From Arthrobacter sp. TMP15 (GTDB lineage Bacteria > Actinomycetota > Actinomycetes > Actinomycetales > Micrococcaceae): DNA of 64,000 nucleotides. Of the stretch, positions 36,131 to 64,000 are shown one piece after another (within the stretch, counting starts at the first letter, position 1; each line of letters begins with the position of its first letter). The notes beneath the pieces were generated by a model. The model was not told the DNA's origin. It made no database searches and was given only the letters and a program-made list of their open reading frames with translations. The stretch spans positions 3,472,001 to 3,536,000 of the forward strand of contig NZ_CP154262.1 of the NCBI RefSeq assembly GCF_039529835.1, in the 5' to 3' direction. Made by a program: the position numbers and the translations under genes.

Positions 36131-36394
36131 CTAGGTCAGCGTAATGCCCAATGCGGCCAGAATGAGCTGTTCAGGACTATCAGCACTTTGTGTAGCCACC
36201 ACCGCCGAGCCTTCCACAGCTTCTAAGTTGCTCGCCGAAACGGCATCGATGACCTCACTTCGATGAATGCTCACATCCCGTGGGGCGTCAATGCCTATGC
36301 GCACTCCTTCGCCGCGGCCGCCATCGAGAATTGTCACCGTGATGTTTCCTGCGATGACAATCTTTTCGCCAATCTTGCGTGTTAGTACCAGCAT
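36131..36394 (-). CDS. csrA: Carbon storage / flagellin translation regulator CsrA
   Basis: An 87-residue RNA-binding protein. The first 50 residues are canonical CsrA (MLVLTRKIGEKIVIAGNITV, then GVRIGIDAPRDVSIHRSEVI); a ~35-residue C-terminal extension follows that is not part of the conserved fold. In flagellated Gram-positives CsrA represses flagellin mRNA and is antagonised by FliW, which is also encoded here (63557-63940). It is last in the long minus-strand flagellar series, 35 bp after the FlhF-like gene. Confidence 0.95.
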   Translation of the reverse strand: MLVLTRKIGEKIVIAGNITVTILDGGRGEGVRIGIDAPRDVSIHRSEVIDAVSASNLEAVEGSAVVATQSADSPEQLILAALGITLT

Positions 36395-44494: not shown

Positions 44495-44521
44495 CTATCG
44501 GCACAACCAAGACATGCGTTA
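44495..44521 (-). promoter_or_regulatory. Sigma-28 promoter of fliM operon
   Basis: TAAC (44521-44518), a 15-base spacer and GCCGATAG (44502-44495) on the minus strand. The -35 element overlaps the motB stop codon, and the predicted transcription start lies only a few bases before the ATG at 44486, so the fliM message may be almost leaderless. Confidence 0.75.
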
Positions 44522-46461: not shown

Positions 46462-46488
46462 CTGTCGGCTGACCCGCGCTATTGGTTA
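46462..46488 (-). promoter_or_regulatory. Sigma-28 promoter of flbD-motA-motB
   Basis: TAAC (46488-46485), 15-base spacer and GCCGACAG (46469-46462) on the minus strand, ending 48 bp upstream of the flbD start. A second -10-like CCCGACAG lies at 46506-46499 but its -35 (TGAT) is poor. Confidence 0.75.
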
Positions 46489-56917: not shown

Positions 56918-58296
56918 TTCTTGCCTGCCGCATCAAAGGAGTTAATTTGGGCCGTCAACCACGATTGCTGCGATTGCATCTTGCTCATCTGAACCTCCAG
57001 TGACGTGTAGACGGCCTGCAATGACGCTCTACGCGTCATCAAACGGGAATCCCAGTCCAGAATTTGAGTGTTGAGATCATTGATGATCGATTGCTGACCT
57101 TTGACTCTTTGGGACAGTGAACCTACGTCAGGGCCAGAAATCGACTTGGCCGCTTCTTCCACCCGCGAGGCCATAGTTTGAAGCATCTTTTCGGTAGCCA
57201 CCGGGTCTTTGGCATACGCTGACGCAAAAACGTCTGGTTCGAAGGAGAGGTCACCGTTCTTTGTGGTGTTGAAGCCGATTGTCGCCGGGGAGAACCCGTT
57301 GATGGGGGATGTAACCGAGTTGAACAGCTTGGTTTTGGCATCGGAAACAGTACTGTTCCCGGAAAAGAGTCCGCCCTTGACAGATGCCCCATCCGAGCCG
57401 GCTCCCGACGTGAGAGTTGACTGGGTCAGGATGGAACCCAGGATGATGTTTATATTGCTAGAGAAATCTTTGGCTGCGGAAGCTACTTTGGCCGAGTCAC
57501 GTGAGGCGCCAACCGTGACAGGCTCAGCCGAGACTTTGTTGACAGTGATATCCAGTCCGGGAGCAAGCCCGGCGAAGGTGTTACTAGCCGAAGTGATCAC
57601 CTGTTCGGCAGTGGTGCCAGCCCAAAGTGTCATTTTGGCGTCCAGCCCGGTTTGTAGCGTGGTCCATGCCCCTGGGCTTGTCAGGGGTACGGCAGTGCCT
57701 GCCTCAACCTCTGCGGCGGTGCCCTGGTGAGCTACGAAGCCATTGGCGGCTCCGGTGTCCTTGGCAGTGAGCTGGAGCCGGTATTGCGTGGCGCCATCGG
57801 CGTCAACACCTGAGGCAATTTTGACGGCTGAAATTCCTGCATCGGATCTGTTAATGGCGTAGGCCATTGCATCAAGGGACGTGGACTCGGCGGTGACCTC
57901 GGTGGTGGTGCCGTCACCTTTAACAAAGGTCATGACGGCCGGGCTAGCCGGCCACTCCGTCATAGGACCACTGACGTTTGACTGTGCTCGTGCCAACGCA
58001 TTGACACTCAGATTCAGGCTGGTAGTCACGGCACCGGGCCCCAATTTGGCGGTGATCGCATCAGATGAGGACGTGGCCTGAAACATGTCCAGACCTCCGG
58101 TTTTCGCCAGCGCCCCAGCTTGGCTGGTCAGTGCGGCAAACTTAGTATTGAGCGCCTGCATTGCCGTAACCAAAGCGGTATCGGTAACAACCCTGCTCTT
58201 CATCAGCGCCTGGGGGCGGGACTCGGCGGCAATGAGCGCGTTGATAATTGCCGTTGTGTCCAATCCGGAGGACAGTCCGTCGATTCCCAAGCCCAT
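56914..58296 (-). CDS. fliD: Flagellar filament cap protein FliD
   Basis: A 460-residue hook-associated protein 2. N-terminal D0/D1 motif MGLGIDGLSSGLDTTAIINA with LIAAESRPQALMKSRV; C-terminal coiled coil DLNTQILDWDSRLMTRRASL followed by LEVQMSKMQSQQSWLTAQIN. The 129-bp gap to flagellin contains a hairpin but no visible sigma-28 site. Confidence 0.94.
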   Translation of the reverse strand: MGLGIDGLSSGLDTTAIINALIAAESRPQALMKSRVVTDTALVTAMQALNTKFAALTSQAGALAKTGGLDMFQATSSSDAITAKLGPGAVTTSLNLSVNALARAQSNVSGPMTEWPASPAVMTFVKGDGTTTEVTAESTSLDAMAYAINRSDAGISAVKIASGVDADGATQYRLQLTAKDTGAANGFVAHQGTAAEVEAGTAVPLTSPGAWTTLQTGLDAKMTLWAGTTAEQVITSASNTFAGLAPGLDITVNKVSAEPVTVGASRDSAKVASAAKDFSSNINIILGSILTQSTLTSGAGSDGASVKGGLFSGNSTVSDAKTKLFNSVTSPINGFSPATIGFNTTKNGDLSFEPDVFASAYAKDPVATEKMLQTMASRVEEAAKSISGPDVGSLSQRVKGQQSIINDLNTQILDWDSRLMTRRASLQAVYTSLEVQMSKMQSQQSWLTAQINSFDAAGKK

Positions 58297-58350
58297 GTGG
58301 AGCTTCCTTTTCGCAGTGAGATATTAGATCTTAAAGTGGACCATGCACAG

Positions 58351-58384
58351 CTGGGGGTACGGATAAGTCCGCACCCCCAGCTGA
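58351..58384. terminator. Hairpin downstream of flagellin gene
   Basis: Arms CAGCTGGGGGT and ACCCCCAGCTG with a further imperfect inner pairing lie about 45 bp after the fliC stop. No T-tract follows, so it may attenuate or protect the flagellin message rather than end it fully. Confidence 0.5.
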
Positions 58385-58425
58385 CCTGCACTCCGGAACT
58401 TTAGAGTCCCGGTAAGTTACTCGAT

Positions 58426-59595
58426 TTAGCCGAGCAGCTTCAGGACGCCCTGGTTGGACTGGTTGGCCTGGGCCAACATGGCCGTGCCTGCCTGCGCCAA
58501 GATGTTGGAGCGCGTGAAGTCCACCATTTCTGAAGCCATGTCCACATCAGTGATGCGTGACGTGGCTGCGGACAGGTTTTCCTTGCCAACATTCAAGTTG
58601 CTGATAGCTGATTCAAGGCGGTTCTGCACGGCACCGAGGTCGGCGCGGGCTGCAGAAACCGTCTTGATCTGCGTGTCGATCAGGTTCAACGATGCCTGCG
58701 CATTCGTAGCGGTCTCAAAATTCAGTCCGCCTGTCATCGGGGTTCCCGCTGTGCCAACCGCAGTACCAGCTGTAGTCGGCGCAGTTGTACTAACTACTCC
58801 ACCGTCTTTAGCCATAACAGTGATACCAGTGCCCGCACCGTTGGCATCCTTGTTTACGCTGACTGTGAAGTTAGCTGCAAACGAAGCGTCGCCGCGCAGT
58901 GCATCGGCGTACTTGTCAACGCTGTCGAAAGCTCCAGCAGCGCCGAGGTCGGCCGTCGTGACTGTGGTTGCCACGCCACCTTTGGTTGTCGTAAAGCTCG
59001 CAGGACCAGCAACAGTCAAGATATCGGCAATGTCAAACTTCGTGCCCGAAGTTGTCAGGTTACCGCCAGCGAGCGTGTTCGCAATTGTCTCGACGTTCGC
59101 ATTAGCAAGATTGACCGAAATCTGGTTGGACTTATTGCCGTCCGCACCGACCTGGAACGTCATATTCGCCGTCGACCCATCCAACAGTGACTTGCCGTTG
59201 AACTTTGTGGCCTCAGACATGCGCGTCAGCTCTGCTGTCAGCTGAGTGGTTTCCTTCTTGATGGCCCCGCGAGAATCGTCATTGTTTGAATCGTTGCCGG
59301 CCTGTACAGCCAGATCACGCATACGCTGCAGGATGGACTGTACCTGAGTCAGCGATCCTTCAGCGGTCTGAACAACGGAGATGCCGTCCTGAGCGTTACG
59401 AGCAGCAACGGTGTAACCGTTGACCTGTGACTTCAGGCCTTCGGAGATGGCCAAGCCGGCTGCGTCATCTGCGGCACGGTTGATGCGAAGACCACTGGAG
59501 AGCTTCTCCATTGACTTTCCCAGCGCATTCTGGGTGGTGCTCAAATTGCGGTAAGCGTTGTTAGCCGCGAGGTTTGTGTTGACTTGCATGCCCAT
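58426..59595 (-). CDS. fliC: Flagellin
   Basis: The 389-residue filament protein. The N-terminal D0/D1 region is canonical (NTNLAANNAYRNLSTTQNAL, then KLSSGLRINRAADDAAGLAI), as is the C-terminal D0 (TDVDMASEMVDFTRSNILAQ, then GVLKLLG). The variable middle is Thr/Ala/Gly-rich. A very strong Shine-Dalgarno (ACGGAGGATT) precedes the ATG. The leader contains a hairpin with a GGA loop. Only one flagellin gene is seen in the window. Confidence 0.97.
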   Translation of the reverse strand: MGMQVNTNLAANNAYRNLSTTQNALGKSMEKLSSGLRINRAADDAAGLAISEGLKSQVNGYTVAARNAQDGISVVQTAEGSLTQVQSILQRMRDLAVQAGNDSNNDDSRGAIKKETTQLTAELTRMSEATKFNGKSLLDGSTANMTFQVGADGNKSNQISVNLANANVETIANTLAGGNLTTSGTKFDIADILTVAGPASFTTTKGGVATTVTTADLGAAGAFDSVDKYADALRGDASFAANFTVSVNKDANGAGTGITVMAKDGGVVSTTAPTTAGTAVGTAGTPMTGGLNFETATNAQASLNLIDTQIKTVSAARADLGAVQNRLESAISNLNVGKENLSAATSRITDVDMASEMVDFTRSNILAQAGTAMLAQANQSNQGVLKLLG

Positions 59596-59600
59596 GAGTA

Positions 59601-59649
59601 AATCCTCCGTGAGTTGGGGTATGACCGAAGCCGCCCATCCATGGGCAGC
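59601..59649 (-). promoter_or_regulatory. Flagellin leader with GGA hairpin and GGA Shine-Dalgarno (CsrA target candidate)
   Basis: On the minus strand the leader has a hairpin (59649-59630) with arms GCTGCCCA and TGGGCGGC (one G.U pair) around a UGGA loop, so GGA is exposed. The ribosome binding site ACGGAGGATT (59610-59601) is a second GGA site. Two GGA elements, one in a loop and one at the Shine-Dalgarno, are the hallmark of CsrA-controlled flagellin leaders in Bacillus. Binding is inferred. Confidence 0.6.
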
Positions 59650-59658
59650 TAAACACCA

Positions 59659-59685
59659 CTGTCGGCACCCACCTGCAAGCCGTAA
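59659..59685 (-). promoter_or_regulatory. Sigma-28 promoter of flagellin gene
   Basis: TTAC (59685-59682), 15-base spacer, GCCGACAG (59666-59659) on the minus strand. The predicted transcription start leaves a leader of about 55-60 bases consisting mainly of the GGA hairpin and the Shine-Dalgarno. Confidence 0.75.
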
Positions 59686-59723
59686 GAAGAACCACTAAAA
59701 GTTTCTCCTTGGCACCATATGAT

Positions 59724-60581
59724 CTATCTGGAGCTGGGACGGCTCAACTGTGCAGGCATCCCGCGCAGAGTTTGCCGTGCCCGGGTGGCGCCACCGTAGG
59801 TGCGGGTGCCCAGCTCGGCCAGATAAGACTCCCGGCGGGATACTGTGATCCGTGCATGAGCCGGGGAATCCGGCGTAGAACTCGCCAGGTAGTGCCGTTC
59901 TAACCCGTCACGCAGCAACCGCATGCCCTCTGCACGTTGCTGAGACACAGCGGAGTGGCTTGAGCCTAACTCCATCGCAAGTTCTTTCACGCTGCGATCA
60001 TGGAAGTAGATTTGTTCAACGATGTAGCGCATCTTCTCCGGCAGGGCAGCCACCGCATGGCCAAGAAAATCAGCATGCTCCGCCTCCACCACTTGCTCTT
60101 CTGGCCCCTGCGAGGTGGCCGCCACCATCTCGGCTATGACGTCAGTCAACGGTGTGACAGTTCGGCTTGCGTCAATCTGCGATGCTTCCACCACTGACTT
60201 TTCAACACCGAGCGCAGAGGCCAGTTCGCCAAGACTGGGCGGGCGTTTCAACACATTCGCCAGGGTCTCTTTGACGGCTGCAAGCTCGGTCATCCTGCTG
60301 CGCGCACCCCGCGTGGCCCAATCATCGCGGCGTAGCTCATCGGCAAAGGCACCTTTAATCCGCCGGCGGGCATAGGCGCCAAACGGCACACCCATACCTT
60401 CGTCAAAGGCCTCGGCACAGTGAATCAGGGCCATAGCCCCAACCTGAACAAGGTCTTCCCTACTTAAATGGTTTGCGCGGAGGAAGACCTCCGCTACGAG
60501 ATATCCAACCAGCGGCAAATTTTGCACGACCAGAGCGTCGCGCTCAACGCGATTCAATTTTTTGCCCCCTAGGCAATTCAT
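59724..60581 (-). CDS. fliA: Flagellar sigma factor FliA (sigma-28)
   Basis: A 285-residue group 3 sigma factor. Region 2 is visible (REDLVQVGAMALIHCAEAFD, then GVPFGAYARRRIKGAFADEL and RRDDWATRGAR), as is region 3 (RPPSLGELASALGVEKSVVE) and region 4 (PEKMRYIVEQIYFHDRSVKE then LAMELGSSHSAVSQQRAEGM). About 55 C-terminal residues go beyond region 4. I show the ATG at 60581; a TTG at 60557 with AGGGGG seven bases upstream is an alternative start. No anti-sigma gene (flgM) is recognisable in the window. Confidence 0.93.
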   Translation of the reverse strand: MNCLGGKKLNRVERDALVVQNLPLVGYLVAEVFLRANHLSREDLVQVGAMALIHCAEAFDEGMGVPFGAYARRRIKGAFADELRRDDWATRGARSRMTELAAVKETLANVLKRPPSLGELASALGVEKSVVEASQIDASRTVTPLTDVIAEMVAATSQGPEEQVVEAEHADFLGHAVAALPEKMRYIVEQIYFHDRSVKELAMELGSSHSAVSQQRAEGMRLLRDGLERHYLASSTPDSPAHARITVSRRESYLAELGTRTYGGATRARQTLRGMPAQLSRPSSR

Positions 60582-60692
60582 AAAAGTGCATCGACGGGCT
60601 CGCCCCCAGAATTCAGCGATCGCCGATAGCGCACTAATCAAGACAACTGTAGGGCACTGAGGCCACAAAAAACACCTCTAGAAAAAAATGAC

Positions 60693-60719
60693 TAACCGGT
60701 GTACTTTTACTGCCGATAG
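60693..60719 (+). promoter_or_regulatory. Sigma-28 promoter of flgN-flgK-flgL-fliW
   Basis: TAAC (60693-60696), 15-base spacer, GCCGATAG (60712-60719) on the plus strand, 41 bp upstream of the flgN start. It is the only plus-strand copy of the set and shares the same 15-base spacing. Confidence 0.75.
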
Positions 60720-60760
60720 TTATTGGTGCAGCTAGGCCAGCCCTATGAAAGGAACTACCC

Positions 60761-61243
60761 ATGGGTCCTGAGGAACTGAGCACGTTATTGTGGCGTGAGC
60801 GGGAACTCCTTGACCTTCTGGTTTTCAAGTTGGAAGAGGAACATTTGATCCTCTCAACAGGGAAAACCCGTTGGCTTGAAAGCGCCACCCGTGAAGTGGA
60901 CCATGTTGTCCAACGGCTGCGCGCAACCTCACTGGAGCGCACCGTGGTGGCGTCCCAGCTCGCCGTTTCTTGGGGTCTAGCGGAGGATGCCGGTCTGCTG
61001 GATCTCGCAGATGCCGCTTCCACAGGACCTTGGCAGGAAATTCTCACAGAACACCTTCAGGCCATGCTGGCCACGGTGGAACAAATCCGTGGGCAACGGG
61101 ACATTAATCTACAGTTTCTGCGTGCTGGCTTACGCTCTGCGCAAGACACCGCCGCCAATCTCAGTCCTGAGGCTGGCACCTATGACCACCGTGGGAAAAC
61201 CAGCCAAGATGCGGTTTCTCTGCTGCTGGATAAAAGTGTCTAA
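60761..61243 (+). CDS. flgN: Flagellar export chaperone FlgN
   Basis: A 160-residue helical chaperone for the hook-filament junction proteins FlgK and FlgL, encoded next. The FlgN fold is recognisable as two long helices (LSTLLWRERELLDLLVFKLE, EHLILSTGKTRWLESATREV) and a C-terminal helical part. AAAGGAAC precedes the ATG. Function assignment rests on family pattern plus position before flgK. Confidence 0.88.
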   Translation: MGPEELSTLLWRERELLDLLVFKLEEEHLILSTGKTRWLESATREVDHVVQRLRATSLERTVVASQLAVSWGLAEDAGLLDLADAASTGPWQEILTEHLQAMLATVEQIRGQRDINLQFLRAGLRSAQDTAANLSPEAGTYDHRGKTSQDAVSLLLDKSV

Positions 61244-61261
61244 AGAAAATTTGAGGAACTC

Positions 61262-62671
61262 GTGAGTAGTTTTAGTGGCCTAAATACGGCCCTATCCGGG
61301 CTTAATGCTGCCCGCACCGGATTGAATGTCACTGGTCAGAACCTGACCAATGTCAATACGGTTGGATACACACGTCAGCGAACTGAATTTGCGGCGCTGG
61401 GCGTTCCAGCTCGAGGTTCGCTGAATGATTTAGGTATTAAAACCGGTCAGGGCGTCGGGGTTAGCGGTATTTCTCGCCTAGGCGATGCTTTCTTGGATGC
61501 AAGGGTGCGCACGAGTTTCTCCGCCGCTGGGTACACCGGTGCCCGCGCTCAGGCACTGACCGGCATCGAGGAGATACTGAACGAGCCGGGCCCGAACGGA
61601 ATTTCCAGCCAATTGCAGGGGTTCTGGACCGCATGGCAGGGTATTGCCAACGATCCCGGGAACGCTGGGACCTCTGCTGTCTTATTGGAAAAATCTGCGG
61701 CGTTAGTGGCCAGTATTGCCGCAGGGTATTCGGCGCTAGATAAACAGTGGTCACAGACCCGAGACACTGCGAACACTGTTGTCGCTGAAATCAATGCAAC
61801 TGCCGGACAGATAGCGGCTCTGAACAAAGACATTCGTTCAGCCCATGCTGCGGGCACCCCTCACAACGAGCTCCTTGACCAGCGGAGTAACTTGACCACG
61901 AAGATTACCCAATTGACCGGGGGAACCGTCCGCGACCTACCGGACGGGACCAATGAGATCCTGCTGGGCGGGAACGTTCTGTTGTCCGGTTCCACAAGTA
62001 ACGCGGTGAAACTCGATGGGGCCACAAGGATGGCCAATGACGGTGAGGTACGCCTCGAGTGGTCTCACCGTCCAGGTTCTGCAGTGGATCTTGACGGCGG
62101 AAAACTGGCAGGTTTGCTCTCTGTTTTGAAACCAGCCGGCAGTGGCGGCGTTCTGGCACAAACTGCGGCTTCTTACAACGCACTAGCGCAAAAACTGGCA
62201 GGAAGTCTCAACGTTGTCCATCAAAGCGGAGTCACCTCCGAAGGCGCCCCCGGAGGTGACTTTTTTAAAATTACAGCTGGTGTACCGGCCGCTCTAGGCC
62301 TTACCGTGGTGCCAACCTCAGCCAAAGAGATAGCCGCTGGAGCCGTCAATATGGGTGGAAAAGATGGGTCAATAGCCGATAAAATCTCACAGCTGGGCAA
62401 ACAACCCGACTCCGCTGATGCCTTGTGGTCAGACACTGTGGTTCGTCTTGGCGTTGAGATTCAGGCAGGCCTCCAGCAAGCCACCCTCTCAGATGTCTCC
62501 TTGACGAACGCCCTCTCCAACCAGCAGGCAAACGCGTCGGTGGACCTTGACGAGGAGAACGTGAACCTGCTGACGTATCAACGCGCATACCAAGCGGCTG
62601 CCCGTGTCATGACAGCCGTCGATGAAGCACTTGACGTTCTCATCAACCAAACCGGAAGGGTGGGTCGTTAA
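61262..62671 (+). CDS. flgK: Hook-filament junction protein FlgK
   Basis: A 469-residue hook-associated protein 1. GTG start with GAGGA four bases upstream. N-terminal motif FSGLNTALSGLNAARTGLNV with GQNLTNVNTVGYTRQRTEF; C-terminal motif VDLDEENVNLLTYQRAYQAA followed by ARVMTAVDEALDVLINQTG. 18 bp after flgN and 1 bp before flgL. Confidence 0.96.
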   Translation: MSSFSGLNTALSGLNAARTGLNVTGQNLTNVNTVGYTRQRTEFAALGVPARGSLNDLGIKTGQGVGVSGISRLGDAFLDARVRTSFSAAGYTGARAQALTGIEEILNEPGPNGISSQLQGFWTAWQGIANDPGNAGTSAVLLEKSAALVASIAAGYSALDKQWSQTRDTANTVVAEINATAGQIAALNKDIRSAHAAGTPHNELLDQRSNLTTKITQLTGGTVRDLPDGTNEILLGGNVLLSGSTSNAVKLDGATRMANDGEVRLEWSHRPGSAVDLDGGKLAGLLSVLKPAGSGGVLAQTAASYNALAQKLAGSLNVVHQSGVTSEGAPGGDFFKITAGVPAALGLTVVPTSAKEIAAGAVNMGGKDGSIADKISQLGKQPDSADALWSDTVVRLGVEIQAGLQQATLSDVSLTNALSNQQANASVDLDEENVNLLTYQRAYQAAARVMTAVDEALDVLINQTGRVGR

Positions 62672-62672
62672 T

Positions 62673-63560
62673 ATGATCTCGCGTGTCACCATGCAAACCA
62701 CCTCAGCAGCCGCGCAGCGCGGAGTCCAAGCCAATGCGGCCAAACTAGCCGAGGCCCAGCTGCGGGCAAACACCCTGCAAAAGAATGTCCGGCTTTCCGA
62801 TGATCCTGCAGCGGCCGCTGATTCCATGGCCGTGCGCGCCACACAAACACAGGCAGCCCAGTACGGACGCAATATTGACAGCGGCAATACGTGGATGACT
62901 ATGGCCAATGGAGCCCTGGATAGCTCCGTGACTCTGTTGCAGCGCGTGCAGTTCCTGTCCATTCAGGGAGCCAATGGCAGTCTTTCCCAAGAAGGAAAAA
63001 ATGCCATCGCTGCCGAACTGGATTCTCTGCACGAGGAATTGCTAGTCCACGCCAACACTAAAGTTTTGGGTCGGAATATCTTTGCCGGCAACTCTGGTGC
63101 CAACAACGCGTTCGAAGACGGTGCACCACCGACATTCACCGGCGCGGATGGGAGTGTTGTTACCCGGCGCATCAGCGCAGAATCAACGCTTCGGGTTGAT
63201 GCCGACGGGGCAGCCATCTTCGGCACAGGTGCGAGCTCGGTCTTTGGCTTGATTTCAAAACTCTCTGCTGAAGTATTAGCGGGAAGCCCGGCTTCCGCCA
63301 CCATTGATGAAGTCAACGCCGCTCTAAACAACGTCATTGACAAGCGTTCGGAACTGGGTGCCCGCCACGCAGTTCTGCTCCGTGCCAAGGAAACGAATAT
63401 CACTTCCCAGCTCGATCTGGAAACAGATCGGGCCAACATCGAGGACCTTGACCTTGGACAAGCTATTTTGGAGCTAAAAACACAGGAACTTGCCTACCAA
63501 GCCTCCTTAAGCGTCACCTCAAAAGTGCTGCAGACCACGTTGATGGACTTTCTGCGATGA
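62673..63560 (+). CDS. flgL: Hook-filament junction protein FlgL
   Basis: Hook-associated protein 3 of about 295 residues, read from the ATG at 62673 (MISRVTMQTTSAAAQRGVQA); the frame is open 17 codons further upstream but inside flgK. Motifs: LAEAQLRANTLQKNVRLSDD and, at the C-terminus, AILELKTQELAYQASLSVTS with KVLQTTLMDFL. ATGA overlap with fliW. Confidence 0.95.
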   Translation: MISRVTMQTTSAAAQRGVQANAAKLAEAQLRANTLQKNVRLSDDPAAAADSMAVRATQTQAAQYGRNIDSGNTWMTMANGALDSSVTLLQRVQFLSIQGANGSLSQEGKNAIAAELDSLHEELLVHANTKVLGRNIFAGNSGANNAFEDGAPPTFTGADGSVVTRRISAESTLRVDADGAAIFGTGASSVFGLISKLSAEVLAGSPASATIDEVNAALNNVIDKRSELGARHAVLLRAKETNITSQLDLETDRANIEDLDLGQAILELKTQELAYQASLSVTSKVLQTTLMDFLR

Positions 63561-63940
63561 GTTCAGAGGTATTGCACCCCCCCGCTAAGCTCCGATTCGT
63601 GGCTTCCCCGCCAGGGCTTGAGCCTGCCGTGGACTTCATGCTGACCGCGATCGAAGGATCCACCGGGCTCTTTTCCCTCGCAACCGAAGGAAGCACGGCG
63701 CGCCTGTTTGTTTTGGACGCCGCTGAGCATCTGCCGCACTACACGCCAAGGCTCGCTACCTCTGAGCTCGAGCGCATCGGCACCGCCACAGCCACAGTGC
63801 TTGTGGTCGTGAACCCGAGCGCCCAAAGCACGGTCAACCTCGCCGCGCCCATACTTGTCAATGAAGTAACCGGTGCCTGTGTTCAGATCATCTTGGACGA
63901 CGCTAAGTGGCCCCTCAGGGCACCTTTGACGCCCGCCTGA
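63557..63940 (+). CDS. fliW: Flagellar assembly factor FliW
   Basis: A 127-residue CsrA antagonist. FliW family features: LRFVASPPGLEPAVDFMLTA, FVLDAAEHLPHYTPRL and the C-terminal VNLAAPILVNEVTGACVQII. Free FliW binds CsrA and lifts flagellin repression; flagellin in turn binds FliW. It ends the plus-strand unit. A possible terminator begins near 63983 but runs off the window. Confidence 0.92.
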   Translation: MSSEVLHPPAKLRFVASPPGLEPAVDFMLTAIEGSTGLFSLATEGSTARLFVLDAAEHLPHYTPRLATSELERIGTATATVLVVVNPSAQSTVNLAAPILVNEVTGACVQIILDDAKWPLRAPLTPA

Positions 63941-64000
63941 AACAAACCGAAACAACCTGAATCAACACAGTTCCATACCAAGAAGCCCCCTCGTTGAGGT

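Follow-up and report, generated by a model that had tools for sequence, protein, structure and literature searches.

The regulatory loop formed by flagellin (Hag), FliW and CsrA is established in Bacillus subtilis (PMC6529632) and Campylobacter jejuni (PMC4894983) and has also been reported for C. difficile (PMC8523840), in each case going by the available text of these papers. For actinobacteria, the accessible portion of the 2008 genome paper of Kineococcus radiotolerans proposed CsrA control of flagellin via a site overlapping the Shine-Dalgarno (SD) sequence (PMC2587704). Actinobacteria were further named among the phyla possibly using FliW in the text at hand of another article (PMC4682653), and CsrA and FliW are listed as search queries in the available part of a third (PMC10746217). 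No paper describing an actinobacterial leader hairpin was found in the open-licence literature, a body of work that leaves most subscription journals outside. A preliminary description of the DNA studied here had called the loop little studied in actinobacteria, which is fair, but it has not gone unnoticed there, to judge by the accessible text of the first two of these sources (PMC2587704, PMC4682653).

In Arthrobacter sp. TMP15, the putatively regulated flagellin gene fliC lies at 58426..59595 on the minus strand of the window, i.e., of the whole 64,000-nt stretch that was analyzed (Pfam PF00669 and PF00700; Flagellin_N 4e-44). Read 5' to 3' on the minus strand, its leader runs UUU-AGCUGCCC-AUGGAU-GGGCGGCU-...-CACGGAGG-AUUUACUC-AUG. 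The hairpin AGCUGCCC-AUGGAU-GGGCGGCU spans 59650-59629 (minus strand) with a stem of 8-9 bp and is the upstream candidate CsrA site, as judged by leader fold, compensatory changes and loop conservation; its GGA is presented in a hexaloop of the ANGGAN type (AUGGAU, 59637-59642, minus strand; extended motif at 59636-59643). The second candidate site, CACGGAGG at 59604..59611 (minus strand), overlaps the SD. Both match the CsrA site CANGGANG, and their GGA triplets are 32 nt apart, a distance that a CsrA dimer could bridge, so the two-site layout anticipated in the preliminary description (one GGA in a hairpin loop, one in the SD) is borne out by the AUGGAU loop and the SD motif. A predicted sigma-28-type promoter (exact match to the pattern TTAC-N15-GCCGACAG; 59659..59685, minus strand) ends at 59659, and the fliC transcript is therefore predicted to start at the base of the hairpin, around 59650-59653. 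Given use of this promoter, the leader would measure about 58 nt, and the roughly 57 bases estimated before thus hold as a prediction. A scan of positions 57000-64000 against 4227 Rfam families returned three chance-level matches and none in the leader.

The significance of this element derives from comparison among leaders and not from the TMP15 sequence alone. The twin CANGGANG motif was rejected as a specific signal, being common genome-wide (61 pairs spaced 10-40 nt apart vs 23 for the reversed control), and single-sequence folding was rejected as uninformative, with z -1.0 when coding bases are included and z -1.7 for the leader alone. The hairpin does fold in the leader, but its stability is unremarkable, and the lowest-energy fold of TMP15 RNA that includes the start codon favors another pairing over the local hairpin.

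Our alignment comprises 40 leaders, i.e., TMP15 and 39 of 47 actinobacterial loci, of which three precede a short mini-flagellin described below (L014, L018 and L026) and two probably do likewise (L022 and L033). The eight excluded loci are L002 (near-identical to TMP15), L048 (same leader as L047), L011, L021, L027, L045 and L052 (match start as reported differing from the ORF start) and L050 (a metagenome bin of Actinomycetota). All 40 leaders share the GGA of the loop and that of the SD without exception, the loop matches CANGGANG in every one of them, and the SD does so in 38, the two exceptions both being Klenkia leaders with CCAGGAGG. The distance from GGA to GGA varies between 26 and 37 nt, which falls inside the CsrA dimer bridging range of 10-63 nt given in the accessible text of PMC7652899. 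Seven of the eight stem pairs show double changes, each in at least one sequence. Double-change cells number 38, whereas shuffles average 9.4, and 88.4% of the cells are paired vs 73.3% in shuffles. No shuffle attained any of five covariation measures, and with a longer alignment one of 500 shuffles attained one of the five. One inner pair is non-standard in 16 of the 40 rows, mostly as an A-G mismatch, and no conserved hairpin is predicted at the SD site in these leaders. The suggested comparison with other actinobacterial fliC leaders therefore came out strongly positive (loop GGA in 40/40), and the leader element is beyond chance when judged in this way.

The same alignment bears on the rival reading that we consider the strongest, a start-codon switch in which the 5' arm of the hairpin, GCCCAUG, would pair with CAUGGGC over the start codon and hide the AUG, so that a protein binding the hairpin would act as an activator. 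This pairing is energetically good in TMP15 RNA, where it is the one used by the lowest-energy fold, and 82% of its cells are pairable across the 40 leaders. However, not one of the 40 sequences displays a double change in it, the pairing does not rise above shuffles, two of its pairs are invariant while two others are broken in 18-19 leaders, and the start-codon bases are constrained by the protein start MGM. In contrast, strong covariation is seen for the local hairpin that occupies these bases. We thus regard a start-codon switch as highly improbable and keep to the local hairpin as a candidate CsrA site.

A sigma-28-type promoter pattern is present in 31 of the 40 leaders, and the loop GGA is separated from the last base of the matched -10 core by 19 nt in 29 of these and by 20 nt in the other two. 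This placement of the hairpin at the predicted 5' end would also be expected if it merely protected or stabilized the mRNA as a 5'-end stem, without any involvement of CsrA. Such a role would leave unexplained why the loop GGA is invariant and why CAC immediately precedes the GGAG SD, an arrangement seen at none of 187 other GGAG-SD ORFs of the same loci, and the hairpin is retained even where a leader has no sigma-28 box nearby. We give this explanation very little credence compared to a CsrA target composed of hairpin loop and SD.

The specificity of the element was assessed with a covariance model covering the hairpin and the SD, which had been built on actinobacterial leaders and matches the TMP15 leader by construction. 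Across the 3.7 Mb TMP15 genome, the fliC leader scored E 1.7e-13 and the next best match E 0.04; matches from this second rank on (E 0.04 and up) were taken as chance. A strict CANGGANG hairpin was found 5' of none of 358 other ORFs. In the order-wide sample of 248 genomes, the model matched in register at 82 of 92 strong flagellin ORFs (Flagellin_N of at least 79 bits, directly encoding flagellin, with FlgL-type proteins removed by score/place), a count that is not fully independent of training since part of the sample overlaps the training set (e.g., G125/L026). All 73 genomes with a strong flagellin ORF carry an in-register element, with 76 of the matches sharing one offset and six sitting one codon further. 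The ten missed ORFs are confined to four genomes, each with five to seven Flagellin_N matches, and all ten have a CACGGACG loop on an uninterrupted stem of 2 to 6 bp, i.e., a diverged version, together with a different SD (CAGGGAAG or CACGGAAG). The flagellin-linked share of model matches is 55/57 at E<=1e-6 and 82/138 at E<=0.01, so weak matches are mostly noise. One such weak match in G158, located 5' of a RimM-like start (by eye) and without a GGA loop, was dismissed as chance.

A few elements lie elsewhere. In genome G145, a CACGGATG hairpin and a CAAGGATG SD (locus L092, at a contig end; E 1.2e-5) precede a chemoreceptor-like ORF (by eye), which is a possible second CsrA target. In G078, an element at around 5325 of locus L090 combines a sigma-28-type -10 and a CACGGAGGA SD in front of a FliS-like ORF (by eye) without a hairpin. 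Several Cryobacterium loci contain a short ORF of around 110-123 aa with a flagellin-like start (MGMQVNTN or similar) and end (SAQANQSNSDVLQLL or similar), found at L018:6001, L014:6001, L009:1441, L013:3954, L020:2222, L045:5836, L027:5803, L026:6001, L011:5845 and L023:2138. This ORF carries the same CsrA-type hairpin leader, the six ORFs tested match Pfam Flagellin_C weakly, and its sequence looks like that of a putative mini-flagellin composed of D0 only. Four Cryobacterium species additionally have a near-identical set of sigma-28-type promoter, hairpin and SD before a FliD-like start (L013:10902, L023:8576, L045:10225 and L014:9983). In three of the species, ATT replaces ATG after the element, and in the fourth a 47-aa frame follows; the FliD-like start (MSMAVDGLISGLDTT, by eye) lies a few hundred nt further 3'. 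The element is a candidate remnant of a flagellin leader or a candidate CsrA decoy.

Both presumed protein partners are encoded in the flagellar cluster, as the preliminary description had stated from their positions. The csrA gene (36131..36394, minus strand; PF02599 1.6e-21), present as a single copy in the genome, encodes an RNA-binding repressor of 87 aa with a C-terminal extension, and the fliW gene (63557..63940, plus strand; PF02623 3.7e-15), in the same genome as csrA and fliC, encodes its predicted antagonist. When numbered as in B. subtilis and C. jejuni, TMP15 CsrA has L4 and R44 (its own R45), which the available text of PMC7652899 describes as critical for RNA binding. Its C-terminal extension has V51 (V52) and N55 (N56), both of which C. 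jejuni CsrA needs to bind FliW, as does B. subtilis CsrA in the case of N55, according to the accessible part of PMC7829508. R44 and N55 are retained in 21 of 21 CsrA proteins (TMP15 and 20 relatives, 13 aligned and 7 by eye), and position 51 is V, I or L among the proteins inspected.

Around fliC, the fliD gene follows downstream (58296-56914, minus strand), and a FliA/WhiG-type sigma factor is encoded at 59724..60668 on the minus strand (best NCBIfam model TIGR02479 FliA_WhiG, 114 bits, below the cut-off of 189.6). An exact sigma-28-type site, TAAC-N15-GCCGATAG at 60693..60719 on the plus strand, lies 5' of flgK, flgL and fliW (61262-63940, plus strand) and probably drives these three genes. 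Two more exact sites of this type are found on the minus strand of the flagellar cluster at 46462-46488 and 44495-44521. The flagellin itself shares 99% identity with its counterpart in Arthrobacter sp. H35-MC1.

Across the 248 genomes of the order sample, CsrA is present in 75, FliW in 76, flagellin in 77 and all three in 72. FliW is thus found in 75 of the 77 flagellin-bearing genomes, with two having flagellin without FliW, and CsrA and flagellin occur together in 73 genomes, CsrA only in two, flagellin only in four and neither in 169. The four genomes with flagellin but without CsrA (G032, G129, G163 and G185) come as assemblies split into 570 to 1060 contigs, so that the absence of csrA may reflect gaps. 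Two adjacent FliW matches each were seen in G032, G048, G078, G106, G120, G162 and G176 (family f14, genus g23). In a phylum-wide sample of 326 genomes, flagellin was found in 52, and 47 of the 48 flagellated genomes outside the order have CsrA and likewise 47 have FliW. Flagella have been lost in many lineages of Actinomycetota. Within the order sample, CsrA accompanies flagellin in 73 of 77 genomes and occurs without it in just two of 248, which fits flagellin control as the main, and perhaps also the ancestral, role of CsrA.

It is conceivable that CsrA represses fliC but that the role of FliW as antagonist was lost or changed in the TMP15 lineage. TMP15 FliW is divergent, with low similarity to the FliW of PDB 5dmb (E 0.002), and the 27 kb between csrA and fliW mean that the two genes lack the translational coupling known from B. 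subtilis. However, CsrA has kept N55 and a V, I or L at position 51, and the co-occurrence of FliW and CsrA is near-perfect, which makes a changed role of FliW unlikely.

We therefore favor a reading in which CsrA targets the fliC leader at two sites and represses fliC translation, with FliW relieving this repression, and we consider it very probable. It builds on the anatomy and covariation of the RNA, the almost universal association with flagellin within the order, the co-occurrence of csrA and fliW and the conserved RNA- and FliW-binding residues, while binding, repression and the FliW/flagellin switch are inferred from published work on Bacillus, Campylobacter and Geobacillus. At the 5' end of the fliC mRNA, a CsrA dimer would dock on the hairpin loop, with the ANGGAN hexaloop serving as high-affinity dock and the SD as second site, and would then bridge to the SD 32 nt downstream, where it would block the ribosome and repress flagellin translation. 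FliW would bind the extended C-terminal side of CsrA in the N55 region and release CsrA from the leader, and non-exported flagellin in the cytoplasm would bind FliW, freeing CsrA to switch flagellin synthesis off. Since csrA lies elsewhere in the cluster, late expression would raise FliW and fliC mRNA together relative to CsrA made earlier.

The order-trained model returns few matches in the other classes of the phylum, and a generic hairpin scan was therefore used on 45 phylum leaders (46 fetched, with L149 dropped as a contig end without start). A GGA in a loop of 5-7 nt is found in 28 of these 45 flagellin leaders vs 6.5 in shuffles, and at 60 of 378 other ORFs vs 53.9 in shuffles. The strict CANGGANG hairpin with at least 3 bp occurs in 21 of the 45 (0.32 expected under mononucleotide shuffling); under the same rule, the 40 aligned leaders yield just 24 hits, as the remaining stems are interrupted by the A-G mismatch. 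It also finds 13 of 15 non-actinobacterial flagellin leaders, which were hand-picked from the loci. The likeness to Bacillus hag proposed at the outset holds up. The actinobacteria-trained model matches Bacillus-group hag leaders exactly at the ATG (B. siamensis E 0.094, B. nakamurai E 0.029), and it also matches several further Bacillota leaders. The actinobacterial element is of the same kind as the hag leader, and common descent of the two is likely. More tentatively, and with doubts outweighing our confidence, the two-site leader may be ancestral to flagellin mRNA, predating the split of Actinomycetota and Bacillota, and may have been copied onto extra CsrA sinks or targets in some actinobacteria, the copies named in this joint reading being the Cryobacterium mini-flagellin (~110-123 aa) and the leader remnant preceding fliD.

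Among the known systems, B. subtilis hag resembles TMP15 in having two CsrA sites with one on the SD, FliW as antagonist and a C-terminal extension of CsrA, as far as the accessible texts go (PMC6529632, PMC7652899). The hag leader of B. siamensis, a member of the B. subtilis group, combines a CAAGGACG loop with a CAGGGAGG SD, both of which match CANGGANG as in TMP15, whereas its stem has 5 bp compared to 8-9 in TMP15. C. jejuni flaA, in the portion of PMC4894983 at hand, likewise has a short leader (45 nt) in which ANGGA occurs twice, once in a hexaloop and once at the ribosome-binding site, with compensatory changes backing the structure and with FliW antagonism, but it forms two stem-loops at a spacing of 21 nt where the aligned actinobacterial leaders have one conserved hairpin and 26-37 nt. 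The Kineococcus proposal also placed CsrA at the flagellin SD of an actinobacterium by analogy to hag, though from 9 of 12 bases at the SD in one species, and the available text of PMC2587704 mentions neither a leader hairpin nor FliW. The SD match had already been proposed in Kineococcus, and new here are the leader hairpin and its comparative support, which, as far as comparison of sequences can tell, would be the first base-pair-level evidence we found for post-transcriptional flagellin homeostasis by CsrA reaching across Actinomycetota.
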